From Oscillospiraceae bacterium (GTDB lineage: Bacteria; Bacillota; Clostridia; Oscillospirales; Oscillospiraceae), in contig JAFSJZ010000060.1 in NCBI GenBank assembly GCA_017449185.1, positions 1 through 63,569 of the forward strand: a stretch of 63,569 nt of DNA, read 5' to 3'. The first letter of the stretch is position 1. Each line of letters begins with the position of its first letter. Below, in pieces: positions 841 to 45,469 of this stretch. The position numbers were made by a program, and so were the translations under genes. Under the pieces are notes generated by a model, which was not told where the DNA came from, ran no database searches, and worked only from the letters and a program-made list of their open reading frames with translations.

Positions 841-3129
841 ATGAGCCAGATCCGGGAGCGCGGCTCCACCCACGTCTATAAGGTCAACAAGATCTCCAAG
901 GAGGAGATGGACGCGATGACGGCGCGCTGCGTTTACGAGCAGCCGCCCTTCTGCAGCGCCGCCTGCCCCCTGAAGCTCGACGTGCGCGCCTTTCTGAAGG
1001 CCGCCGCGGACGGGGACTTCAAAAAAGCGCTGCAGCTCTATGAAAAGGTTGCGGTTTTCCCGCTCGTCCTCTCGGCGGGCTGCGAGGCCCCCTGCGAGGG
1101 CAAATGCCGCGTCGGCGAAAAAGGCGACGCCGTGGCGATCCGCGCGTTGGAGAACGCCGTGGCCCGTCTCGGCGAGGCCTCGAAACTCGGCGGTGTGTTC
1201 CGCAGTAAGAAGAGAAAGACCGTCGCCGTCCTCGGCGCGGATCTCTTCACGCTCTTCCTCGCGGGAGAGCTGGAAAAGAAGGCCTACCCGATCACGGTCT
1301 TCTGCGCCGAGGCCGACGATGAGCAATACCTGCGCGCCTGCGCGCCGCATTTGAGCGACGCGGCGTTTGCCCTCGAGCTCAAGAGACTCAAGGGCAAGGA
1401 CATCCAATTCGAATTCGACCGCCGCCTCGATGCGGCGCTGTATAAAGAGATAAAAGAGAACTTCGACGTGCGCTGCGCAGCCGGAGCCGTGGCGAAGGCC
1501 CTCTTCCCTGACGCGGCGATCTTGCCCGAGCTGATGCTCTTCGAGGAAGAGAAGCTCGTGTGCGGGGAGTGCGTCGGCGTGCTGGACGCGGCCTTCGGCG
1601 CGAAGAAGGCGGCGCTGACCGTCGACCGGCTCGCGCAGAACCTCGACGCGCGGAACATGCGCGGCTCTGAGGGCGCGTGCGAGAGCAGGCTCTATACCGA
1701 CCTTTCGGAGGCGAAGGCGCTGGAGCGCGTCGCCGCGGGCGAGGACGGCTATACGAAGGAGCAGGCCGTCGAGGAGGCTTCGCGCTGCATCCAATGCCGC
1801 TGCGAGGAGTGCCTGAAGTCCTGCGCCTACCTCAAGCACTACAAGAAGCACCCCGGGCTGCTCTCGCGCGAGATCTACAACAACACGCAGATCATCATGG
1901 GCGACCATCCGCTGAACAAGGCGATGAACGCCTGCGCCCTCTGCGGGCAGTGCACGGTGGTCTGCCCCAACGACTTCGACATGGCCCGCGTGTGTCTCAT
2001 GGCGCGGCGCAACATGGTCTCGACGGACAAGATGCCCCTCGCGCCGCACGAGTTCGCGCTGATGGACATGCTCTTTTCCAACAACGAGGCCTTCCTTGCC
2101 CGCCCGCAGCCCGGTTATACGGCGTGCAAATACGTGTTCTTCCCCGGCTGCCAGGCCGCGGCGATCGCCCCGGCGACCGTGAAGGCGGCCTACCTCGACC
2201 TCTGCGAGCGGCTCGAGGGCGGCGTGGCGCTGATCCTCGGCTGCTGCGGCGCGATCGGCGACTGGGCCGGAAGGATCGAGATGCAGGAACAGGCGCACGA
2301 GCTCCTCGAAAACGAGCTTGCCAAGCTCGGCGATCCGGTCGTGATCGCGCTCTGCCCGAGCTGCGCGAAGGAGCTGCGAGAGAACCTCTCGCGCGAGGTG
2401 CGCGGGATCTGGGACGTGCTGCTTGAAATCGGCCTGCCGGACGGCGCAAGAGCGCTCGAGCGGCCCGCCGCCCTGCACGACTCCTGCGGCGCGCGCGGCG
2501 ACGCGGCCACGCAGGCGGCAATCCGGAAGCTCTGCGAGGGGATCGGCTGCACGCTCGTCGATACGGAAAACTCGGGCGACCGCTCGCCCTGCTGCGGCTA
2601 CGGCGGGCTGACCGCCTACGCCAACCGCGAGGTCGCCGCGGAGATGACCGAGAGCTGCCTCGAGCGCAGCGACGCGCCCTATATCTCCTACTGCATGGCC
2701 TGCCGCGACCGCTTTGCACGGCAGGGGCGGGAGTCGAGGCACGTCCTCGAGCTCTGCTACGGCACGGACGCGGGCGCGCCGCCCGACATCAGCGAGAAGC
2801 GCTGCAACCGCCTGAGTCTGAAAAACGAATTGCTCAAAGAAATCTGGCTGGAGGAGACGATGGAACAGAAGCTCGATTACGCGCTCTCGTTTACGCCCGA
2901 GGCGCGGAAGATGATGGACGAGCGCATGATCCTCGTCGAGGACGTGATCGCCGTGCTCGAGGATTTTCGCGCCAGCGGCGAGGCGATCCGGGATGAGGAT
3001 GGGCTGCTGGTTGCGCGAAAGCGCGTCGGCAACGCCACCTTCTGGGTGAAGTTTTCGCCCACAGACGAGGGCTTCCTGGTGCACCGCGCCTGGAGCCACC
3101 GCATGAGAGTGGAAAAGAGAGAAGGGTGA
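841..3129 (+). CDS. DVU_1558-like Fe-S oxidoreductase: dicluster-binding plus CCG-domain protein
   Basis: A cytosolic redox protein of 762 aa, probably moving electrons to or from the molybdenum hydroxylase. Order of parts: N-terminal cysteine block like dihydropyrimidine dehydrogenase domain II (from Cys38, CSAACPLKLD); a Rossmann-like segment (about 125-300) whose dinucleotide loop is degenerate (VLGADLFTLF); two Fe-S cysteine clusters (CIQCRCEEC from 316, CALCGQC from 365); a heterodisulfide-reductase-type cysteine-rich domain (FFPGCQ about 433 to CCGYGG about 584); and a separate C-terminal domain (about 670-762). Start chosen at 841 because GGGAGG lies just upstream; an in-frame ATG at 802 has no such site. 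The gene order that follows matches the conserved Desulfovibrio DVU_1558-1553 set. Confidence 0.8.
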   Translation: MSQIRERGSTHVYKVNKISKEEMDAMTARCVYEQPPFCSAACPLKLDVRAFLKAAADGDFKKALQLYEKVAVFPLVLSAGCEAPCEGKCRVGEKGDAVAIRALENAVARLGEASKLGGVFRSKKRKTVAVLGADLFTLFLAGELEKKAYPITVFCAEADDEQYLRACAPHLSDAAFALELKRLKGKDIQFEFDRRLDAALYKEIKENFDVRCAAGAVAKALFPDAAILPELMLFEEEKLVCGECVGVLDAAFGAKKAALTVDRLAQNLDARNMRGSEGACESRLYTDLSEAKALERVAAGEDGYTKEQAVEEASRCIQCRCEECLKSCAYLKHYKKHPGLLSREIYNNTQIIMGDHPLNKAMNACALCGQCTVVCPNDFDMARVCLMARRNMVSTDKMPLAPHEFALMDMLFSNNEAFLARPQPGYTACKYVFFPGCQAAAIAPATVKAAYLDLCERLEGGVALILGCCGAIGDWAGRIEMQEQAHELLENELAKLGDPVVIALCPSCAKELRENLSREVRGIWDVLLEIGLPDGARALERPAALHDSCGARGDAATQAAIRKLCEGIGCTLVDTENSGDRSPCCGYGGLTAYANREVAAEMTESCLERSDAPYISYCMACRDRFARQGRESRHVLELCYGTDAGAPPDISEKRCNRLSLKNELLKEIWLEETMEQKLDYALSFTPEARKMMDERMILVEDVIAVLEDFRASGEAIRDEDGLLVARKRVGNATFWVKFSPTDEGFLVHRAWSHRMRVEKREG

Positions 3130-3132
3130 ACG

Positions 3133-3354
3133 ATGGCTGTTGAAAAGAATTACTACACCATAGACCCGCAGGGCAAGCTCAGCTGCGTCAAGTGCGGCGT
3201 GCCGCTCGTGAAGGGCAAGGCCAAGTTCATGTACCTTGACAACGGCTTTCCCGTCGAGCTGCCCGTGTGTCCCGTCTGCGGCTTCGTTTACGTGCCGGAG
3301 GAGCTGGCGCTGGGCAAGGTCGCATCCGTCGAGCGGGCGCTGGAGGATAAATGA
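3133..3354 (+). CDS. DVU_1557-like small redox/zinc-ribbon protein
   Basis: A 73-aa protein with two CxxC pairs, CVKCG near residue 19 and CPVCG near residue 49. They could hold one zinc or iron atom, as in rubredoxin-like or zinc-ribbon folds. It starts 3 bases after the Fe-S oxidoreductase and overlaps the next gene by four bases (ATGA), so it is translated as part of the operon. It matches the position and size of the DVU_1557 family. The exact chemistry is unknown. Confidence 0.7.
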   Translation: MAVEKNYYTIDPQGKLSCVKCGVPLVKGKAKFMYLDNGFPVELPVCPVCGFVYVPEELALGKVASVERALEDK

Positions 3355-3863
3355 ACCGTCACCCCGGCGGCGAAGAAAACACCCGCCGCCTCATCGAGCT
3401 GGCAAAGCTGCCCTCCGGCGCGTCCGTCCTGGACATGGGCGCGGGCGCGGGTGAGACGCTGAACCTGCTGCGCTTGCTGGGTTTTGAAGCCCGCGGGATC
3501 GACCGCGAAGCGCGCGGCGAGGGCGTGGAAAAGGGCGACTTTCTCCGTGCCCCGTACCCGGACGGCAGCTTCGACGCGGTGATCGGCGAGTGCGCCTTCT
3601 TCGTCTCCGGCGATCAGGCGGGGGCGCTGCGGGAGGCGCGGCGGCTGCTGAAAGACGGCGGCCTGCTGCTGCTCTCGGACGTATTTTTCGACGAGCCCGA
3701 GCAGATGCTTACAGGCGCGGGCTTCGATATCCTCTGTTGTGAGGATCAGACGGACGCGTGGCGGGAGTATTACCTCGAGGCGCTGTGGCGCGGCGATGCG
3801 CCCTGCTGCGAGCTGCCCAAGGGAAAAGCAAGCTATTTTTCTTTGATCGGAAGGAAGGTTTGA
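3351..3863 (+). CDS. DVU_1556-like class I SAM-dependent methyltransferase
   Basis: A 170-aa protein. Motif I is visible as VLDMGAGAGETLNLL near residue 25, followed by an acidic residue after the second strand (GIDREARGEG), the motif FDAVIGECAFF near residue 80, and LLKDGGLLLLSDVF near residue 102. These are the landmarks of Rossmann-fold methyltransferases of the Methyltransf_11 type. The start overlaps the stop of the preceding gene (ATGA), which argues for coupled translation. The target of methylation is unknown; a cofactor or maturation role for the neighbouring Mo hydroxylase is inferred from context only. Confidence 0.75.
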   Translation: MNRHPGGEENTRRLIELAKLPSGASVLDMGAGAGETLNLLRLLGFEARGIDREARGEGVEKGDFLRAPYPDGSFDAVIGECAFFVSGDQAGALREARRLLKDGGLLLLSDVFFDEPEQMLTGAGFDILCCEDQTDAWREYYLEALWRGDAPCCELPKGKASYFSLIGRKV

Positions 3864-3867
3864 GAAA

Positions 3868-4293
3868 ATGGATCTCTTTGACCGAATCATGGAGCTGAGC
3901 CGTTACGGCTATTTCTGCGGCCAGATCCTGGCCATTTTGATGCTCGACACCGTGGGCGAGGAGAACCCCGGCCTCGTCAAGGCCATGGGCGGCCTCAACG
4001 GCGGCGTGGGCTTTTCGCAGGGCTGCTGCGGCTGCATGACAGGCGGCGCCTGCCTGATCTCGTACTTCACCGGCAAGGGCGAGGACACCGGTATGGACCA
4101 CCCCGAGCACAAGAGCGCGCTGGGTGAGTTCACGCGGTGGTTCGCCGACGAAATGACCGCCGACTACGGCGGGATCGAGTGCCGCGATATCACAAAAGGA
4201 AATCCCGCACGGCGCGTGGAGCTCTGCCCGCAAATCATCGCGGCCACCTATGAGAAATGCATGGAGATCCTCTCGGAGAAGGGCCTGCTGTGA
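3868..4293 (+). CDS. DVU_1555-like C-GCAxxG-C-C family protein
   Basis: A 141-aa protein with cysteine at YFCGQ (about residue 17), the signature GCCGCMTGGACLISYF (about 51-66), then ECRD and ELCPQII downstream. Spaced Cys/GCxxG/Cys/Cys sites of this kind define the C-GCAxxG-C-C family, thought to bind a metal or redox group. The last codons carry the ribosome binding site for the next gene, and the stop overlaps a GTG start, so the two genes are translationally coupled. The biochemical role of the family is not established. Confidence 0.75.
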   Translation: MDLFDRIMELSRYGYFCGQILAILMLDTVGEENPGLVKAMGGLNGGVGFSQGCCGCMTGGACLISYFTGKGEDTGMDHPEHKSALGEFTRWFADEMTADYGGIECRDITKGNPARRVELCPQIIAATYEKCMEILSEKGLL

Positions 4294-5474
4294 TCTTCCC
4301 GGGGAATATGCCGCGCATCGACGCGCTGATCCGCGCGCAGGAAGGCATGACGAGCCTGACGCGCGCGGACCTCGAGGCGATGCAGCTTGCAAAACTCAAC
4401 ACCCTGCTTGCGCGCGAGAAGGCGCGGGGCGGGTATTACGCCGTCCTGCCGGAGCGTCTCGAATCCCTCGAGGCGCTCTCTTCGCTGCCCTTTACGACGG
4501 ACGAGCAGCTCGCGGCAAACGCGCCGGGGCTGCTGCTTCGCTCCCAGGCGGAGCTCAGCCGCGTCCTTTCCGACGCGACCTCCGGCACCACCGGCGCGGC
4601 CAAGCGCGTGTTCTACACCGAGGGCGACTGCGCACGCACGGTCGAGCTGTTCATGGCGGGTCTGGGCGAGCTGGTCTTCCCGGGCAGCGTCACGGCGATC
4701 TGTTTTCCCTTCAGCGGTCCCTACGGTCTCGGCGAACTGATCGCGGAGGCGATCAAGGGACTCGGCGCGCGGCCGCTGAAGGTCGGCGCGGCCTTCTCGT
4801 ATGGGGAATGGTCGCAGCTTCTTGCGCGGGAGAGGCCCGATACCTTCGTCGGCATGCCGGTGCAGCTGCTGCGGCTGCTGCGCGTGTGCGGAAAGGGGAG
4901 CCTCGAACGGGCGCTCGTGAGCGCCGACGCCTGCCCCGCGGCAGTGATCGAGGGCTGCGAAGCCATTCTCGGAACGAAGCTCTTCCCGCACTACGGCTCG
5001 CGCGAGATGGCCCTCGGCGGCGCGATCAGCTGCGGCGCCCACGCGGGCATGCACCTGCGCGAAAACCACGTGATCGCCGAGATCGTGGACGAGGAGGGAA
5101 AGCCTCTCCCGCCGGGCGAGAGGGGCGAGCTCGTCATCACGACCGTCGGGATGGAAGCCATGCCGCTCATCCGTTACCGCACCGGAGACTATACGCGCGT
5201 TCTGCCCGGGGCATGTCCCTGCGGCAGCGAGGTGCTGCGTCTCGACGCGGTCGACCGCGGAGCGGAGAGCGCGGAGCTCGCCTCTCTCGACGAGCTGCTC
5301 TTCCGCCTCCCCTTTGTGGCGGACTACCGCGCCGAAAGAAAAGACGGGCGGCTGCGCCTCGAAGTGCTGAGCTGCGGCGAGGGAGAGCTGCCCCCGCTCG
5401 ACGCGGATGTGACGCTGCGCCCTGCCCGGGCGGAGGACGGCGCGCTGTACCGCGGAAAAAGACGGATCGAATAA
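4290..5474 (+). CDS. DVU_1553-like AMP-dependent CoA ligase
   Basis: Predicted adenylate-forming CoA ligase of 394 aa, similar in length to phenylacetate-CoA ligases. Seen: the P-loop-like motif SDATSGTTGAAKRVFYTEGD near residue 90, YGSREMALGG near residue 235, and a C-terminal RGELVITTVG..PLIRYRTGDYT that matches the ATP/AMP-binding hinge region. The GTG at 4290 is preferred: GGAGAAGG sits 7 bases upstream and it forms a GTGA overlap with the previous stop. An in-frame ATG at 4257 lies deep inside the preceding gene. It is the last gene of the cluster and is closed by a strong terminator. Substrate unknown; an aldehyde-derived acid is a reasonable guess from context. Confidence 0.78.
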   Translation: MIFPGNMPRIDALIRAQEGMTSLTRADLEAMQLAKLNTLLAREKARGGYYAVLPERLESLEALSSLPFTTDEQLAANAPGLLLRSQAELSRVLSDATSGTTGAAKRVFYTEGDCARTVELFMAGLGELVFPGSVTAICFPFSGPYGLGELIAEAIKGLGARPLKVGAAFSYGEWSQLLARERPDTFVGMPVQLLRLLRVCGKGSLERALVSADACPAAVIEGCEAILGTKLFPHYGSREMALGGAISCGAHAGMHLRENHVIAEIVDEEGKPLPPGERGELVITTVGMEAMPLIRYRTGDYTRVLPGACPCGSEVLRLDAVDRGAESAELASLDELLFRLPFVADYRAERKDGRLRLEVLSCGEGELPPLDADVTLRPARAEDGALYRGKRRIE

Positions 5475-36569: not shown

Positions 36570-36585
36570 ACAAAAAAAGAAAAGC

Positions 36586-36616
36586 GCCGGAACGGGAAAC
36601 CGTTCCGGCCTTTTTT
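36586..36616 (+). terminator. terminator after egsA
   Basis: GCCGGAACGG (36586-36595) pairs with 36600-36609 around a GAAA tetraloop and is followed by CTTTTTTC. Confidence 0.9.
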
Positions 36617-36753
36617 CATGCGATTCGGCACGCGGGAAAGAGCCTTGCGTCCGATCCTTCGACACACAGGGGGAGGATTGTGAAGGGGCTGGCGGAAGGG
36701 CCAACTCCCGTAAGATAGTTTTATCGTCTTTGCAGGGACGGCATGGCATTTTG

Positions 36754-38841
<2,088 letters not shown>

Positions 38842-39247: not shown

Positions 39248-39490
39248 TCAATCAACACGCTTTACACTTGTTGCATCAAGCCAGATGTAAATATATACCC
39301 TTCCTGTGTGTTTTTCACGAAATGTTTTGAATGTTTCGGATAAGCAAAATTGATCTATTGCTTCTTCTAAAGACGACGCATCAACTATGCAAGTTGATGA
39401 TGCTCCGTATAAATCAAGTGCTCTATCTCCAGCAAGATCAGAAAATGGGTTGGTGATATTTGGATACGTTGATACAAATAATTCGAACAT
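39248..39490 (-). CDS. small hypothetical protein downstream of the VanZ-like gene
   Basis: An 80-aa protein with no recognised domain. It contains ASSTCIVDASSLEEAIDQF and ends HTGRVYIYIWLDATSVKRVD. It looks like a small mixed alpha/beta fold without membrane segments. ATG 39490 is preferred because GGAGG lies 5 bases before it; an upstream ATG at 39523 would add 11 residues. It lies close behind the VanZ-like gene on the same strand, probably as one transcript. The AT-rich composition fits the island, not the host. Confidence 0.55.
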   Translation of the reverse strand: MFELFVSTYPNITNPFSDLAGDRALDLYGASSTCIVDASSLEEAIDQFCLSETFKTFREKHTGRVYIYIWLDATSVKRVD

Positions 39491-39537
39491 GTTTTCCTCC
39501 ATCGTATGATTGGTTTCATACACCTGGGTTATTTTGA

Positions 39538-40179
39538 TTATTGCCAGATGCTGATTTCTCCGCTGTCTTTATTTGCAGCAAACCAAGAATGATATATTTC
39601 CGGCTGAACAGTAATCATTGATACAAATGAGAGAGCGCAAAACAGAAGCAATTCATAACGGCACTGTTCGCCATCGATTTGCAGGGAACCGATCAACGAT
39701 TTTGGAAAGATCTTGCGGAGATATTTTGAAATGAAGTAACCCAAACACGCGCCGATGGTGTTTGTTATCAAATCATTGATATCTGTAGCTCCGCATTCGA
39801 ACATTTGAACCAGCTCAATGGATAATGAAATGAGGAAACCTGCCAACGCAACCTTTTTAATGCTATCGTACCTTTTGTACATGATTGGGAGTAATAACCC
39901 AAGAGGGAAAAACAGAAGAATGTTTAGTGCAGTATCGACAGGGCCCCGTATCATATCTACAAAAGGGATATAAACAATTCTGGGTGCAAATGATCCAAGA
40001 TACCATATCCCCGTCATTGTTAGTACTCCTACAAGATAAAAGCAGAATATGAATGAAACTATGATATGGCATATTGGCAACTTTTTTCGTTTGCTTGTCA
40101 AGATAAAGTAACATGCCAAAGCAAAGAAAACAGGGATATATCCACAAATAAGATGTCGAATACTCAATTCCCAATCCAT
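39538..40179 (-). CDS. VanZ family membrane protein
   Basis: A 213-aa membrane protein with five hydrophobic segments. The family core is visible as DTALNILLFFPLGLLLPIMY (about 85-105) followed by SIELVQMFECGATDINDLITNTIGACLGY, whose key residues are ELVQ, R/G-(A/T)-x-DINDLxxN and the terminal GxxLG. VanZ raises teicoplanin resistance in enterococci, but most members have unknown roles. AAAGGAG precedes the ATG and a good promoter lies upstream. It is AT-rich and may be island cargo. Confidence 0.8.
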   Translation of the reverse strand: MDWELSIRHLICGYIPVFFALACYFILTSKRKKLPICHIIVSFIFCFYLVGVLTMTGIWYLGSFAPRIVYIPFVDMIRGPVDTALNILLFFPLGLLLPIMYKRYDSIKKVALAGFLISLSIELVQMFECGATDINDLITNTIGACLGYFISKYLRKIFPKSLIGSLQIDGEQCRYELLLFCALSFVSMITVQPEIYHSWFAANKDSGEISIWQ

Positions 40180-40252
40180 GTTTTACTCCTTTGTTTTGCA
40201 TTCTGCCGCTCCCGAACCGGCTTAAAGGGAATATCGATTAGTAATGTCAATG

Positions 40253-40281
40253 ATTATAGTTGATTTGGCTAACCTTTTCAA
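40253..40281 (-). promoter_or_regulatory. promoter for the VanZ-like operon
   Basis: On the minus strand TTGAAA (40281-40276), a 17-base spacer and a perfect TATAAT (40258-40253). Confidence 0.75.
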
Positions 40282-40383
40282 GTTGGGAGGTCTTAATTCG
40301 ACATTAAGATTTGATTAACGAAAAGGCTTTTCTCTCAGGTCGTCTATGTTTTATTACTAAAACGAGAGCTTGCTTTGTCAATT

Positions 40384-40442
40384 ATGCAAACCAATTTGCC
40401 TCAAAAACGCAAAACATAATAAACCAAAAATGCAAATCAATT
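40384..40442 (+). repeat. imperfect direct repeat ATGCAAAyCAATT upstream of the operon promoter
   Basis: ATGCAAACCAATT (40384-40396) and ATGCAAATCAATT (40430-40442) differ at one base. The second ends one base before the -35 box at 40444. They could be binding sites for a regulator of the defence-like operon. Confidence 0.45.
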
Positions 40443-40443
40443 G

Positions 40444-40472
40444 TTGACCAGGCATAAAAACAAGGTTATAAT
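40444..40472 (+). promoter_or_regulatory. strong promoter for the DUF4143-DUF6680-DUF262-ATPase operon
   Basis: TTGACC (40444-40449), a 17-base spacer and a perfect TATAAT (40467-40472). Confidence 0.8.
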
Positions 40473-40505
40473 ACAAGCAGAGAATTTCTCATGGGGGCGC
40501 ATATT

Positions 40506-41798
40506 ATGCCGGAATACTTACCAAGAATAGTCGATAACGAGTTGGCTCTGCGGCTGGAGGCATTTGGCGCCACGCTAATCGTCGGGCCGAAGTGGTGCGG
40601 AAAGACCACGACGGGCGAGCAGCAGGCGAAAAGCATTCTGCGGATGCAGGACCCGGACCGACGGGAAGGATATATGGCCACGGCCAATACTAAGCCCTCC
40701 CTGCTGCTGCGCGGAGAAAATCCGCGCCTGATCGATGAGTGGCAGGTCGCTCCAGTGCTGTGGGACGCCGTGCGTACTGCTGTGGATCAGCGTCAAGAAG
40801 AAGGCTTGTTTATCCTCACGGGCTCGACCTCTGTGGACAACAGCAAGATCATGCACTCCGGCACCGGCCGAATCTCTCGCATGAAGATGTACCCCATGAG
40901 CCTGTTCGAGTCGAAGGAATCCAACGGCAACATTTCACTGAAAGCGCTGTTCAATGACCCGGGCTTGGACATCGACGGGATCACGTCGGAGCTGTCGATC
41001 GAAAAGCTGATTTTTGCCGCCTGCCGCGGCGGCTGGCCGGGTGCGCTGCGCAGAAAGAGCGACGCGGCCAAGCTGCTGATCGCCCGCGACTATATTAACA
41101 ACATTTGTGAGACGGACATTTCCACCGTGGACGGCGTGCAGCGGAATCCCGTGTGGACGAATATGATCCTGCGCTCGTACGCTCGGAACATCTCTACCCT
41201 TGCCAAGAAGACGAACATTTATAGGGATGTTTCCGCCAATGCAGACAGTATGACCTCAGCCACGATGGACAGCTATCTCAACGCCCTGGAAAAGCTGTTT
41301 GTGATTGAAGACATCGAGGCCTGGTGCCCGGCGATCCGTTCCGCGACGACGATCCGCTCCGGCAAGAAGCGTGAGTTTACCGATCCGTCCATCGCCGTGG
41401 CCGCCATGGGTCTGACGCCCGAATACCTGCAGACGGATCTAAAGACCTTCGGTTTCATTTTCGAATGTCTCTGCATCCGTGATCTGAAGGTCTATTCGCA
41501 GGCGCTCGGCGGGAAACTGTCCTATTATCATGACCGCTACGATCTGGAAGCCGACGCGGTCCTTCATCTGGACGACGGGCGCTATGCGCTGATCGAGTTC
41601 AAGCTGGGCAGCAAGGAGATCGAAGAAGGCGCCGCGCACCTTTTGGAGATCACGCGCCTGATCCGCAAGTATAACGAAAAAGAAACTCAGGTGCCCCTGC
41701 GTGAACCGGACCTGCTCATGGTCATCACCGGCGGTGAAATGGCCTATACCCGCGAGGACGGGGTCAAGATCATCCCGATTGGGACGCTGAGGGACTAA
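40506..41798 (+). CDS. AAA ATPase with C-terminal DUF4143 nuclease-like domain
   Basis: A 430-aa protein. The N-terminal AAA_14-type ATPase has Walker A GPKWCGKTT (27-35), a Walker B-like RLIDEWQ and the sensor TGSTS. The C-terminal DUF4143 part (about 215-400) includes DPSIAVAAMGL, FGFIFECLCIRDL and then DLEADAVLHLDDGRYALIEFKLG. The D...(E)xK arrangement in that segment resembles a PD-(D/E)XK nuclease core. Start taken at 40506 (MPEYLPRIVD, the family beginning) with GGGGGCG upstream; ATG 40491 is possible. Its GC content is host-like while both sides are AT-rich, so the island is a mosaic. It is the first gene of a four-gene transcript. Its part in the system is unknown; such ATPases are common in accessory DNA. 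Confidence 0.85.
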   Translation: MPEYLPRIVDNELALRLEAFGATLIVGPKWCGKTTTGEQQAKSILRMQDPDRREGYMATANTKPSLLLRGENPRLIDEWQVAPVLWDAVRTAVDQRQEEGLFILTGSTSVDNSKIMHSGTGRISRMKMYPMSLFESKESNGNISLKALFNDPGLDIDGITSELSIEKLIFAACRGGWPGALRRKSDAAKLLIARDYINNICETDISTVDGVQRNPVWTNMILRSYARNISTLAKKTNIYRDVSANADSMTSATMDSYLNALEKLFVIEDIEAWCPAIRSATTIRSGKKREFTDPSIAVAAMGLTPEYLQTDLKTFGFIFECLCIRDLKVYSQALGGKLSYYHDRYDLEADAVLHLDDGRYALIEFKLGSKEIEEGAAHLLEITRLIRKYNEKETQVPLREPDLLMVITGGEMAYTREDGVKIIPIGTLRD

Positions 41799-41816
41799 AG
41801 ATAAGGAGCTAGAGAT

Positions 41817-42323
41817 ATGATGTGGATCAATATTATCGCAATAATTGTTGCTCCGATTGCCGCGGTATGGATCGGACAAATGCTTCAGGATCGCGCAGAA
41901 AAGCGCAGAGATAAAGTGGCGGTATTTAAGGCTGTAATGACATATCGATATGGATGGTCTCAGGAAGCAGTTCTCGCCCTAAACAGTATCCCTATCGTAT
42001 TTGCTGAAGACAAAACGGTTCGTGATCGATGGAAAGAGTATTACAAGCAATTATGTGTTCAAAACCCAGATCAGATGCAAATTAAGCAACGGACAGAAGC
42101 TTTATACAAGTTGATAGAGAGCATGGCGGCTACGCTTGGATATAAGGAAACCATTAGTTGGGAGGACATTCAGAATCCGTATATTCCATACGGGATGGCA
42201 ACAGCTTTTGACAACAACATGACTATTAACAGTACAATGGCGGAGATCCTACCGCAGATGTTAATGTCCATGGTAAATAGCCAAGCTGCGCCGAAAGAAG
42301 ATGCTTTTCGCACAAAAGATTAA
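41817..42323 (+). CDS. DUF6680-like membrane-anchored protein
   Basis: A 168-aa protein with one N-terminal membrane helix (about 2-22) and then a cytosolic helical domain. Characteristic stretches are WIGQMLQDRAEKRRDKVAVFK, cited by its parts GQMLQDR and KVAVFK, RYGWSQEAVLALNSIPIVF, WKEYYKQLCVQNPDQ, and ISWEDIQNPYIPYGM. I associate this pattern with the DUF6680 family from memory. AAGGAG lies 8 bases before the ATG and only 18 bases separate it from the DUF4143 gene, so they share a transcript. Membrane anchoring could supply an effector or tether for the neighbouring ATPase system; that is inference. Confidence 0.65.
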   Translation: MMWINIIAIIVAPIAAVWIGQMLQDRAEKRRDKVAVFKAVMTYRYGWSQEAVLALNSIPIVFAEDKTVRDRWKEYYKQLCVQNPDQMQIKQRTEALYKLIESMAATLGYKETISWEDIQNPYIPYGMATAFDNNMTINSTMAEILPQMLMSMVNSQAAPKEDAFRTKD

Positions 42324-42419
42324 GTGGATTGATAAAGATATATATTCCTTGCGAGATTGTAAATAAACATATTATTCTTCAACAAACAATTTATAGCTAT
42401 TACTTGTGGGGTGAACTGA

Positions 42420-43592
42420 ATGAAGTGTCAAACTACTGAACTAGAAATTGAAACTGTGGTTAGCAGAATTAAAAACGGTGATATGGATTTGCAACCGGAT
42501 TTTCAGAGAGGCGAAATCTGGACGCCTCAAAAAAAGAGAAAACTGATTGATTCCATCTTACGAGGATGGCGTATCCCTCCCATACATGTCGTCCTTAATA
42601 GTCATGCGATAGATGAAGTTTTAGATGGGCAACAGCGCCTTGCTGCAATTCGGGACTTTAATGATAATATAATTTGTGTCGATGGTAAAATTGAACCATT
42701 TGACTCGAGTATTGCCAGTTTGGATGGAATGTTTTATCGCGATCTGCCGAAAGAATGGCAACGACGGTTTCGCCAGTATAGTATAAACATTGTTCGCTTA
42801 ACAGAATATAAACCTGAGGAGCCCGCAGAACTTTTTTATCGATTGAACCAACCCTCCGCGCTTACATCTGCTGAACAAAGAAATGCATATATTGGCGTTA
42901 CGCGAGACCAAGTAAAGAACCTGTCAAATATGTTTATTTCTTTAGGTGGGACAAAAGAACTCCTTGGGTTCTCTAACTCCAGATTGGCTTACGACGAAAT
43001 AATATCTAAGTTTTGCTATTCCGTTGAATTAGGTACCTTGAAAAAGAAAATCACTTCAACTGATATCTCAGAGCAGTATCGAAAAGGACAGCCTTTTTCT
43101 GACGAATGCATAGAGATCGTAGATGAGTCGATTCACAAATTCTTGGCAAGTATCTGTGCGAGGGATGATTACAAGTTTTCGTTCAACAAGGCGACTCTAT
43201 ATAGTTGGTTGATTTTCACTCGGCAGAATCTTGATATGGATGAAACTGCATTTAGCGATGTAATCACATACTTTGAGTTTTGTAGAGCTTTTGTAAAAGG
43301 ACAGAGCAAAAAGACAGACGAAAAGTATTTAAGTGTTTATGCAAAAATGCTTAAGCAGTTACCCTTTTTCGAGTTGATGTTAAATACATTCAACCAACGG
43401 TCTAGTATGGGCAGCACAGATGCGCTTTCGATTATTTATCGTGATGTAATCATTGCACTTTTTCGGGATGCCTTGCTTTATGAAAAAACCGATTTGTTGA
43501 CTTTAGCCTTATCATCTTTTTCTGATTATGAGAACATGAATAGCATGTTAGAGACTATCGTCAGCAAGTATAGTTGGGGTGAGGCTTTCTGA
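42420..43592 (+). CDS. DUF262 (ParB/GmrSD-like) domain protein
   Basis: A 390-aa protein. The DUF262 core is clear: LQPDFQRGEIWTPQKKRKLIDSILRG, with key residues QPDFQR (25-30) and SILRGWRIPPI, and DGQQR (69-73), which in ParB/sulfiredoxin-like folds bind or hydrolyse a nucleotide. The C-terminal 250 residues are helical and lack the HNH/DUF1524 nuclease domain that GmrD or SspE carry, so cleavage may be delegated to the next gene. The stop overlaps the start of the ATPase gene (TGATG), so the two products are coupled and probably bind each other. AT-rich, unlike the host. Confidence 0.85.
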   Translation: MKCQTTELEIETVVSRIKNGDMDLQPDFQRGEIWTPQKKRKLIDSILRGWRIPPIHVVLNSHAIDEVLDGQQRLAAIRDFNDNIICVDGKIEPFDSSIASLDGMFYRDLPKEWQRRFRQYSINIVRLTEYKPEEPAELFYRLNQPSALTSAEQRNAYIGVTRDQVKNLSNMFISLGGTKELLGFSNSRLAYDEIISKFCYSVELGTLKKKITSTDISEQYRKGQPFSDECIEIVDESIHKFLASICARDDYKFSFNKATLYSWLIFTRQNLDMDETAFSDVITYFEFCRAFVKGQSKKTDEKYLSVYAKMLKQLPFFELMLNTFNQRSSMGSTDALSIIYRDVIIALFRDALLYEKTDLLTLALSSFSDYENMNSMLETIVSKYSWGEAF

Positions 43593-45010
43593 TGAGAGAT
43601 GCAAAAGCACAGGATTATTGGAGCACTGCATATAAACGGCAGTATACTGACAGTCTGCTGGAGATAAATTTCAATGGATTAAACAACCTGCCAACTTTTT
43701 CCTTTCCTCAGGGGATTCTCGCGATTTGTGGATTAAATGGTGCCGGGAAAAGTACAATTGTGTCCGCGATTAAAGCCGTTGTTGGATTACCACTATCTGA
43801 TCAAGATAGGCATAGAATCCATTCCCAAACAATTAATTGCAGAGCAACCTTGTCTGGATGTGACGTGATGTGCTCTAACCGTGATGGGGAAAGACTTATT
43901 GAAATTGGATGGGATGAGGATAAAATTGTTTTCATAGATTCCACCGATAGTGTAAACGCTCAAAGATTTATCGTTAGCCAAGCAAACCTAGATGAACTCT
44001 TGGAGCAGTATGAAGAGTATGAACTACCTGAATCAAGTATTGAAGAAATAAACTATTTGGTTGGTAAAAGGTATACTACGTGTTCTATCCGTGAATTAGA
44101 GGACGTAGGCGGCTCTGGCTCAACAATTCCATATTTCTCAGTCGAAGTAGATGGCGAAGAATACGACACGAAAGGAATGGGATACGGAGAACACTTCTTG
44201 TTTTACTTGTTCTGGCGTATAAACAGCGTGGACAAGGATACCCTAATAATACTTGAGGAACCAGAGACGTTTATCAGCATCTCATCTCAGATACACTTTG
44301 CAAACTATCTTGCAAAGCAGATGGCAAAGAAAGGAACTAAAGTAATACTTACAACCCATTCCCCATACATATTAGCTAGTATTAAAAACGATAATGTTAG
44401 GATCGTTAGTCGTATGGGGAGTGCTGTTTCAATCGTTCCGCCAGATGAAAATCTTACAGCAGAGAATTTGTTGGGGCTTGAAAGCAATAGTATTGGAACC
44501 TTTTTTGTAGAAGACAAAGTTGCATCTGATTTACTAAGCACTGTTTTAGAAGATCGGAATCCTCAGTTATTGAGAACATTTGCTATTGATCCAGTTGGAG
44601 GTGAAGCAGAGATAACAAAACGTTTAACGTTTCCCTTCAGTGAGAGAATAAAGTATCAGTTTGTTGGTATCTACGATGGCGATATGCGAACAGTGCTAGA
44701 CCCATCGTTGCTCAATTGGAAGTATTGTTTTTTGCCAGGAGAGAAGGCAATAGAAGAAGTCCTGCGAGAATATATGCATCAAACTCCAAATATTAGCAAA
44801 TTGTGCTCATATCTTGGCAAGGATGAAGGAAAAACAATTGCAGTATTAGCAAAGATAGATGGGCTTGACTGCCACGACTGGTTCAACGAGTTCAGGAAAC
44901 TTTTGATGCTAGATGGGAAAACCTTGATAGAGGCATTTTATCAGACTATGATGAAGGATAGTGATGAAGTGAATTCTTTCCTGATTGAGCTAAATGAAGC
45001 GTTACAATAG
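43592..45010 (+). CDS. ABC-type (AAA_21/AAA_15) ATPase with fused TOPRIM-like nuclease domain
   Basis: A 472-aa protein of the OLD/RecF-like class. ATPase part: Walker A GLNGAGKST (47-55), a GMGYGEHF signature-like segment (195-202), Walker B LIILEEPE (218-225) and H-loop TTHSPYI (His256). The C-terminal part is TOPRIM-like: Glu307 in FFVEDK, the PVGGEAEI turn (335-341), the DxD pair in YDGDMR (Asp362, Asp364), then LPGEKAIEEVL (381-391). OLD-family nucleases and the paired PARIS AriA/AriB proteins share these features, but they are not usually linked to DUF262. The start overlaps the DUF262 stop. The gene ends 50 bases before a strong terminator. Confidence 0.85.
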   Translation: MRDAKAQDYWSTAYKRQYTDSLLEINFNGLNNLPTFSFPQGILAICGLNGAGKSTIVSAIKAVVGLPLSDQDRHRIHSQTINCRATLSGCDVMCSNRDGERLIEIGWDEDKIVFIDSTDSVNAQRFIVSQANLDELLEQYEEYELPESSIEEINYLVGKRYTTCSIRELEDVGGSGSTIPYFSVEVDGEEYDTKGMGYGEHFLFYLFWRINSVDKDTLIILEEPETFISISSQIHFANYLAKQMAKKGTKVILTTHSPYILASIKNDNVRIVSRMGSAVSIVPPDENLTAENLLGLESNSIGTFFVEDKVASDLLSTVLEDRNPQLLRTFAIDPVGGEAEITKRLTFPFSERIKYQFVGIYDGDMRTVLDPSLLNWKYCFLPGEKAIEEVLREYMHQTPNISKLCSYLGKDEGKTIAVLAKIDGLDCHDWFNEFRKLLMLDGKTLIEAFYQTMMKDSDEVNSFLIELNEALQ

Positions 45011-45060
45011 CACCCATAGCACTGTTTTATTATTTTACCCTAAAGAAGTATTTTAAGCGC

Positions 45061-45107
45061 AAAAAAGAGATGGTCTGGACCTAAACAGTTCAGATCATCT
45101 CTTTTTT
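45061..45107 (+). terminator. strong terminator closing the island operon
   Basis: A 17-bp stem with one G-T pair (45061-45077 with 45091-45107), with A and T runs in the arms. Confidence 0.9.
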
Positions 45108-45205
45108 GTAATCCTGTCAGACAGATGCCAATTCATTTTTGCTTAAAACTCTCTTATGGGTGTAGGGGCAAGCCCCCTCTTCACGTTCAATCATTTCACA
45201 TAAAA

Positions 45206-45232
45206 AACGGGAGCTTTTGATAAGCTCCCGTT
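45206..45232. terminator. bidirectional terminator for the zinc-ribbon gene
   Basis: AACGGGAGCTT (45206-45216) pairs with 45222-45232 and has T or A runs on both sides. It lies 4 bases after the minus-strand stop. Confidence 0.85.
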
Positions 45233-45235
45233 TTT

Positions 45236-45469
45236 TTACGTGGTTTTGCCGAGCCATTCGTGGACCTTGTCCTGATCCACGCCGAGACCCGCGGAGATAA
45301 AGGCGGTCAGCTCGTTGTAGTTGAGGGATTTGATGCGCTCGTAGTTTTTCACGCCGGGCTTGACGTCGTTGTTGCGGCCCTCGATATAGCCGCACTCGTA
45401 GCACATGTAGGCGCTGTATTTGCGATGGCTGTCGAGCGTCATTTCACTTCCGCAGCGGGGACATTTCAT
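45236..45469 (-). CDS. small zinc-ribbon protein
   Basis: A 77-aa protein starting MKCPRCGSEM with a second pair MCYECGY, so two CxxC pairs (about 3-6 and 23-26) likely hold a zinc. The rest, YNELTAFISAGLGVDQDKVHEWLG, is a small helical domain. Role unknown; such proteins often bind nucleic acid. It lies in host-like DNA just right of the island. GGGAGG precedes the ATG on the minus strand. The perfect palindrome TTTTTCGCGAAAAA (45513-45526) in its upstream region could be an operator. Confidence 0.7.
   Translation of the reverse strand: MKCPRCGSEMTLDSHRKYSAYMCYECGYIEGRNNDVKPGVKNYERIKSLNYNELTAFISAGLGVDQDKVHEWLGKTT

Follow-up and report, generated by a model that had tools for sequence, protein, structure and literature searches.

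Which of the four same-strand genes at positions 40444-45107 of an Oscillospiraceae contig belong together, and could they form an anti-phage defence system? The contig (NCBI GenBank assembly GCA_017449185.1, contig JAFSJZ010000060.1) was analysed as a single stretch of 63,569 nucleotides, referred to here as the window. A preliminary description of this DNA listed, in order, genes encoding a DUF4143 ATPase, a DUF6680-like membrane protein, a DUF262 protein and an ATPase-TOPRIM fusion, and proposed that they constitute one defence operon. Open reading frames (ORFs) and Pfam families agree with the positions and names given there. The pair at 42420-45010, which encodes the DUF262 protein and the ATPase, is a real unit, and the four genes are not one system. 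We give a probability of about two in three to the reading of this pair as a mobile two-gene module for anti-phage defence, in which the DUF262 protein would gate an ATPase-TOPRIM nuclease. The module is probably related to, yet distinct from, already named defence systems. The features of the pair are as follows.

42420-43592, plus strand: DUF262 gene; 390 amino acids; Pfam GmrSD_N (DUF262, PF03235) at 4.4e-19; candidate sensor or gate with nucleoside triphosphatase (NTPase) activity
43592-45010, plus strand: OLD-like ABC ATPase gene; 472 amino acids with a TOPRIM-like tail; Pfam AAA_15 at 2.3e-13; candidate effector nuclease
43590-43594, plus strand: TGATG, overlap of the DUF262 and ATPase genes
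45060-45108, plus strand: intrinsic terminator 3' of the pair; 21-pair stem, -28.9 kcal/mol, z -9.4; as stable in 0 of 200 shuffles

The TGATG overlap and the strong terminator closing the stretch, both reported earlier, are present in the sequence, and no ORF lies between 45010 and the terminator.

The window DUF262 protein, compared with viral contigs by tblastn, revealed four loci (L090 to L093) with 33-43% identity (E 8e-92 to 5e-51); the next match stands at 7e-20. All four carry a window-type ATPase gene directly downstream of the DUF262 gene and overlapping it. In each, ATGA combines the DUF262 stop with an in-frame ATG of the ATPase gene; L090 also has an earlier in-frame ATG. The top four matches of a second tblastn scan, led by the window ATPase, are the same four contigs. 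The adjacency of the two genes, which the preliminary description proposed to look for elsewhere, is therefore kept in four of four close relatives. When viral contigs were scanned with an alignment of DUF262 proteins, 98 DUF262 loci were confirmed, the best 80 of which were kept. In the 76 of these that remain besides the four relatives, profile searches of the retrieved flanks detected no window-type ATPase; the flanks include at least 1 kb of downstream sequence in 69 loci and less than 1 kb in 7. Likewise, DUF262 is found in none of the flanks of 25 other ATPase-family loci (12 from the ATPase scan and 13 fetched earlier; at least 1.2 kb upstream in 22, less in L248, L062 and L059). The window and L090-L093 served to train the flank profiles, with L067 added for the ATPase, and the independent ranking is that given by tblastn with the window protein.

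Maximum likelihood trees placed the five pair members in a single clade for both proteins, with support of 100/98 for DUF262 and 97/99 for the ATPase, in each case apart from the proteins of Menshen, a known DUF262-containing system. The trees cover chosen sets of 32 and 26 sequences, the ATPase tree without L067, which is partial. Support is weak at some of the deeper forks, both trees gave warnings of long branches, of which there are several, and the order within the ATPase clade is mostly unresolved. The DUF262 protein and the OLD-like ATPase are thus encoded by a conserved overlapping unit found repeatedly, in distantly related bacteria and in prophages.

The two upstream genes and other features of the region are as follows.

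40444-40472, plus strand: sigma-70-like promoter site 5' of the DUF4143 gene; 11/12 match; may also read into the pair
40491-41798, plus strand: DUF4143 ATPase gene; ORF call; Pfam DUF4143 at 1e-27 with AAA_14; outside the module
41817-42323, plus strand: DUF6680 gene; Pfam 2.3e-41; hydrophobic segment at the N-terminus; optional neighbour, not core
42302-42420, plus strand: module boundary; homology to the island of genome G044 ends at 42302, and GGGGTG, resembling a ribosome-binding site, precedes the DUF262 start
39538-40179, minus strand: VanZ-like gene; part of the DUF4143-DUF6680 block; 81% identical in G044
36848-38470, minus strand: large serine recombinase with Resolvase, Recombinase, Zn ribbon and DUF4368 domains; left side of the AT-rich island

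The four genes do not form one unit because the DUF4143-DUF6680 block recurs without the pair in G044, a genome of the same genus. The block, consisting of a 91-residue gene, the VanZ-like gene and the DUF4143 and DUF6680 genes, shows 80% DNA identity over 39252-42302. Homology ends there, short of the 96-bp spacing between the DUF6680 gene and the pair, and the pair is absent from the G044 block. Its place is taken by another DUF262 locus on the opposite strand, encoding a 776-residue DUF262 protein and a 504-residue protein. In this locus (L069, 5773-9628, minus strand), two stretches of the larger protein match GmrSD_N/NsnA and the partner has no Pfam or PADLOC match; it is possibly another DUF262 system.

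Full-length copies of the DUF4143 protein (91-95% identity) occur in four same-genus genomes, G044, G049, G059 and G053, and its neighbours in the last three differ from those in the window. Matches to DUF4143 at E <=1e-60 were found in 20 of 81 genomes examined, the window genome included. ATPase matches were found in 21 of 199 related genomes; G044, G049 and G059 are absent from these, and G053 shows merely 26% identity over 90 residues. The DUF4143 gene is missing from the fetched flanks of all four pair relatives. DUF6680 lies near the pair only in L092, on the opposite strand and about 1.9 kb away, the flank profile used having been trained on this very match. Elsewhere, the DUF6680 gene adjoins a DNA methylase gene (G168) or a helicase/ResIII gene (G213), and a search of plasmids for it gave no match. 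Hence, of the upstream genes counted as members in the preliminary description, DUF4143 has a separate history and DUF6680 is at best an optional neighbour.

Base composition also separates the genes. GC content is 57% in the DUF4143 gene, 43% in the DUF6680 gene and 39% in the pair, the rest of the window being mostly 55-70%, and the pair therefore does lie on an AT-rich island beside a serine recombinase, as had been described. Direct repeats of at least 11 bases that could mark attachment sites were not found between 36570-36900 and 45000-45300. The strong promoter reported upstream holds only in part: the site at 40444 matches at 11 of 12 positions, but such sites are no commoner than expected (14 between 38.5 and 47.0 kb, vs 12.4 +/- 3.4 in shuffles). 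The gap at 42324-42419 holds no plus-strand promoter match of at least 9/12, and one 9/12 site lies upstream, within the DUF6680 gene (42158-42185).

A single defence operon of all four genes would fit the shared strand, the one strong terminator and the lack of a clear second promoter before the pair, as well as the joint presence of DUF4143 and DUF6680 in G044 and of DUF6680 near the pair in L092. The DUF4143 protein, moreover, matches the PADLOC candidate PDC-S01 (1.3e-56). However, the close DUF4143 copies in four genomes without a listed close ATPase, the pair-less G044 block, the difference in GC content and the gene content of the relatives' flanks make such an operon very improbable. 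The earlier proposal of a defence locus is thus upheld for the pair, which is conserved in its close relatives and found in defence-like or mobile settings, but not for DUF4143 and DUF6680.

By sequence, the window ATPase is an OLD-type ABC ATPase. It features a Walker A lysine (K53), an EEPE motif at 222-225, H256 and a THS motif, and an N-terminal stretch is conserved across the pair family. The best PDB match of the ATPase family profile is the OLD nuclease 6p74 (3.4e-13, ATPase part only), followed by AriA. Among PADLOC profiles, the full protein matches retron ATPase-Toprim_I-B (9.5e-22), HEC-04 (9.7e-19) and NsnB (6.3e-17). The head without the tail is best matched by NsnB (1e-17), and the tail alone matches only HEC-04, with no NsnC match at E up to 1. 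Alignment with GajA covers profile columns 196-342, mainly in the ATPase part.

TOPRIM domains alternate strands and helices and carry their catalytic motifs at strand ends. In an AlphaFold2 (AF2) model of the ATPase (mean pLDDT 66), strands at 302-306, 330-334, 356-361 and 377-380 alternate with helices, and E307 and D362/D364 are located just past strand ends. E307, D308, D362, D364, L381 and P382 are invariant in 11 aligned tails.

The DUF262 protein contains the QR, DGQQR and FxxxN motifs, as they are named in the part of PMC12137116 dealing with DUF262, and a WG near the C-terminus is present in all five pair members. As stated in the preliminary description, DGQQR is present and an HNH domain is lacking; Pfam detects no DUF1524/HNH match in either the DUF262 protein or the ATPase.

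Defence-like settings are observed in three of the four relatives (L090, L092 and L093). L090 is a Pf prophage whose flank matches Pf phage 62-2 (91% over 62%). Downstream of its repressor, Pf 62-2 encodes an ATPase that matches the NsnB profile at 2.5e-42, along with a putative OLD nuclease (by annotation), and the L090 pair occupies the same region of the element as this ATPase cargo. In L092, Gabija lies upstream of the pair (GajA 2.2e-218, GajB 4e-179), and DUF6680 (3.4e-48) and a resolvase lie downstream. L093 has AbiH (6.2e-42) and a DUF262 + HEPN pair (9.3e-21) nearby; a protein with an ion-channel domain (Ion_trans_2, 8.3e-14) is encoded at 2786-4333, between AbiH and the pair, the whole resembling a defence cluster. 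Neighbours and family relations support a defence role, short of proof.

We propose that the DUF262 protein is an NTP-binding or NTP-hydrolysing sensor of a cue of infection, which could be a phage protein or DNA that is foreign or modified. It may restrain the OLD-type ATPase dimer or load the ATPase on DNA. Once triggered, the TOPRIM-like domain (E307, D362, D364) would cut nucleic acid, so that phage replication is blocked or the infected cell is killed. The ATPase and effector roles would then be joined in one protein, while in Menshen they would be split between NsnB and, presumably, NsnC. The NTPase, nuclease, trigger and protective roles are predictions drawn from relatives of the two proteins: passages of a review describe the DUF262 relatives in BrxU and SspE as NTPase sensors of DNA modification (PMC10952713), and sections of PMC10568477 deal with OLD relatives.

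Several results weigh against the module reading. The tail gives no Pfam TOPRIM match, and its profile retrieves only weak PDB matches to other folds (E 0.14 or worse). The residues that the preliminary description assigned to the TOPRIM-like tail (E307, D362 and D364) are invariant in the 11 tails, and the TOPRIM fold is a prediction. In a VIA-align fold comparison, the 50 rows listed mostly cover residues 19-297 (up to about 329), which correspond to the ATPase head, so that the tail is hardly tested; these rows include no OLD or Gabija structure, which excludes nothing. The model of the DUF262 protein is mostly good in the first 130 residues, and the remainder is helical and of low confidence. 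Neither Pfam nor PADLOC returns a match for the Pf 62-2 gene with the OLD nuclease annotation. L091, found in a contig of the viral collection, is flanked by a C5 methylase and RusA, with no defence system identified beside the pair; a search of phages with the DNA near L091 returned nothing.

The distribution of the pair points the same way. Few candidates were scored per genome in the larger surveys, and on that basis the prevalence of the pair is low in the genomes sampled. No pair was detected in 398 genomes of the phylum, where three distant ATPases lack a DUF262 gene nearby (one flank ends at 355 bases), or in 291 genomes of the class, where no ATPase appeared at E 1e-15. The plasmid collection yielded no pair in the records opened (8 of 130 and 2 of 103 for DUF262; 5 of 10 and 1 of 16 for the ATPase). 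Tblastn searches of the plasmid and phage collections with the window ATPase and the L090 proteins returned distant ATPases and other DUF262 types, with no pair in the matches opened, and a distant search of E. coli DNA with the L090 pair returned nothing. The known loci amount to five complete pairs, plus a locus truncated at the end of its contig and a remnant.

A two-peptide pattern scan of 84,980 genomes confirmed two loci, in metagenome-assembled genomes of Oscillospiraceae and Ruminococcaceae. Scans that looked for close relatives of one protein at a time, the ATPase or the DUF262 protein, confirmed none. Among places matching NsnA besides the window, 13 of 17 were fetched and include one Menshen locus (L076) and no pair; all 8 of the other DUF262 genomes were fetched, with one Menshen locus (L052) and no pair, L047 ending at a contig end.

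Besides the window, close ATPase copies in the 199 related genomes are limited to one in G072 (63% identity) and a fragment of about 50 residues in G033. The G072 contig (L032, 3731-6452) ends inside the ATPase gene, so that the DUF262 side is out of reach; the ATPase copy is followed by a 364-residue protein with a weak, below-cut-off match to nucleoside deoxyribosyltransferase. The G033 fragment (L033, 9036-9308, same contig as L068) is a remnant of the ATPase C-terminus with 82% DNA identity to 44856-44999. It follows a gene that resembles an acetyltransferase by eye; the ATPase gene, at least, is present there as a decayed copy.

The occurrence of the pair on prophages and islands could also be explained by a role in plasmid or conjugation conflict, or in maintenance of the element, instead of phage defence. 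This explanation would suit OLD-type and DUF262 proteins, whose action could extend to any DNA entering the cell. It nonetheless appears quite unlikely, since some neighbours of the pair are anti-phage systems and the plasmid collection, in which part of the DUF262 matches were opened, gave no pair.

Another explanation starts from Menshen, which, in passages of PMC10952713, pairs DUF262 with a predicted OLD nuclease; canonical Menshen loci are also seen here, so the earlier statement that no described system pairs the two proteins does not hold. The pair could be a divergent Menshen subtype that lost NsnC since its ATPase carries its own nuclease domain. The DUF262 protein matches the PADLOC NsnA profile (1.1e-33) and the ATPase matches NsnB, which is also the best profile for the head without the tail; the review, besides predicting that the partner of DUF262 in Menshen is an OLD nuclease, connects the OLD TOPRIM family with a component of Menshen (PMC10952713). 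However, the NsnA match is not specific because SIR2-linked (2.7e-29) and HEPN-linked (2.2e-75) DUF262 proteins match this profile too. In the trees, neither window protein groups with Menshen, given the weak deeper forks and long branches mentioned above, and NsnB and the Pf ATPase lie on one side of a 100/99 branch with the pair clade elsewhere. Full ATPases of the window, L090 and L093 score HEC-04 above NsnB. Finally, NsnC is lacking, the tail matches HEC-04 only, and a terminator follows the ATPase gene. A Menshen subtype is therefore unlikely, although some published Menshen may be closer to the window pair than the loci compared here.

Short DUF262 proteins feature varied downstream partners in L039, L042, L048, L050, L051, L078 and L093, including SIR2 and HEPN (by annotation or Pfam) and small uncharacterised proteins, as would be expected of a sensor able to work with different effectors. 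In a separate group of loci (L059, L060, L062, L063 and L249), ATPases of about 560-605 residues related to that of the window adjoin proteins resembling C5 cytosine methyltransferases by eye, i.e., a recurrent ATPase-methylase pair. Going beyond the module reading, we tentatively suggest, as a possibility, that the pair is an unnamed two-gene anti-phage system that represents an OLD context beyond classes 1-4. A DUF262 NTPase would serve in it as a dedicated sensor or brake, and short DUF262 proteins would combine with exchangeable partners (ATPase-TOPRIM, ATPase + NsnC, HEPN or SIR2). The literature searched, mostly by listings, gave no description of a two-gene form with DUF262 and a fused ATPase-TOPRIM, and the pair may already appear in a published survey.

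In its gene order, the pair resembles Menshen (NsnA-NsnB-NsnC), where the gene of a short DUF262 protein likewise precedes and overlaps that of an OLD-like ABC ATPase. In contrast, the Menshen ATPases analysed here are 348-371 residues long and are accompanied by a third gene, NsnC, whereas the window ATPase has 472 residues and no third gene. By Pfam, the Menshen ATPases of L041 and L043 contain AAA and DUF3696 (weak in L041) and no TOPRIM match; the window ATPase carries a TOPRIM-like tail, and Menshen proteins group separately from the pair in the trees. What DUF262 does in Menshen and Dazbog is treated as an open question in PMC10952713.

OLD nuclease classes 1-4 (P2 Old, Gabija GajA, retron Eco8 and PARIS), as defined in the relevant part of PMC10568477, share an ABC ATPase with the window protein, whose TOPRIM-like tail is a candidate counterpart of their C-terminal domain. 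The window partner, however, is DUF262 and not a UvrD-like helicase, a reverse transcriptase with noncoding RNA (ncRNA) or AriB. Neither the UvrD-like helicase of Gabija (GajB) nor the reverse transcriptase of retron I-B was found among the nine window proteins scanned, ncRNA not having been searched for. In PARIS, TOPRIM is encoded by the separate AriB gene, whereas the window tail is on the ATPase itself. HEC-04 and retron ATPase-Toprim_I-B are the PADLOC profiles nearest to the full window ATPase, but the HEC-04-type loci examined lack DUF262 in the flanks retrieved and belong to another clade in the tree. WonAB and PD-T4-4, which combine an OLD-ABC ATPase with a nuclease, are also two-gene OLD-type systems; in the part of PMC12137116 covering them, WonB is a PD-(D/E)xK nuclease and no DUF262 partner of WonAB is described, while the window partner is DUF262.

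GmrSD/BrxU/SspE, TgvAB and GrwAB likewise contain DUF262 with the QR, DGQQR and FxxxN motifs. The window pair differs in lacking the DUF1524 His-Me nuclease, the proposed nuclease being on the separate ATPase protein. The pair would, if our reading is true, offer a compact two-gene system to probe a DUF262 protein without a nuclease of its own. The C-terminal WG of DUF262 and the conserved N-terminus of the ATPase, both encoded at the gene junction, are candidates for the interface. OLD-type nucleases are known alone or with a helicase, a reverse transcriptase or a split TOPRIM partner, and a DUF262 partner would add to these arrangements a sensor with relatives that read DNA modifications.

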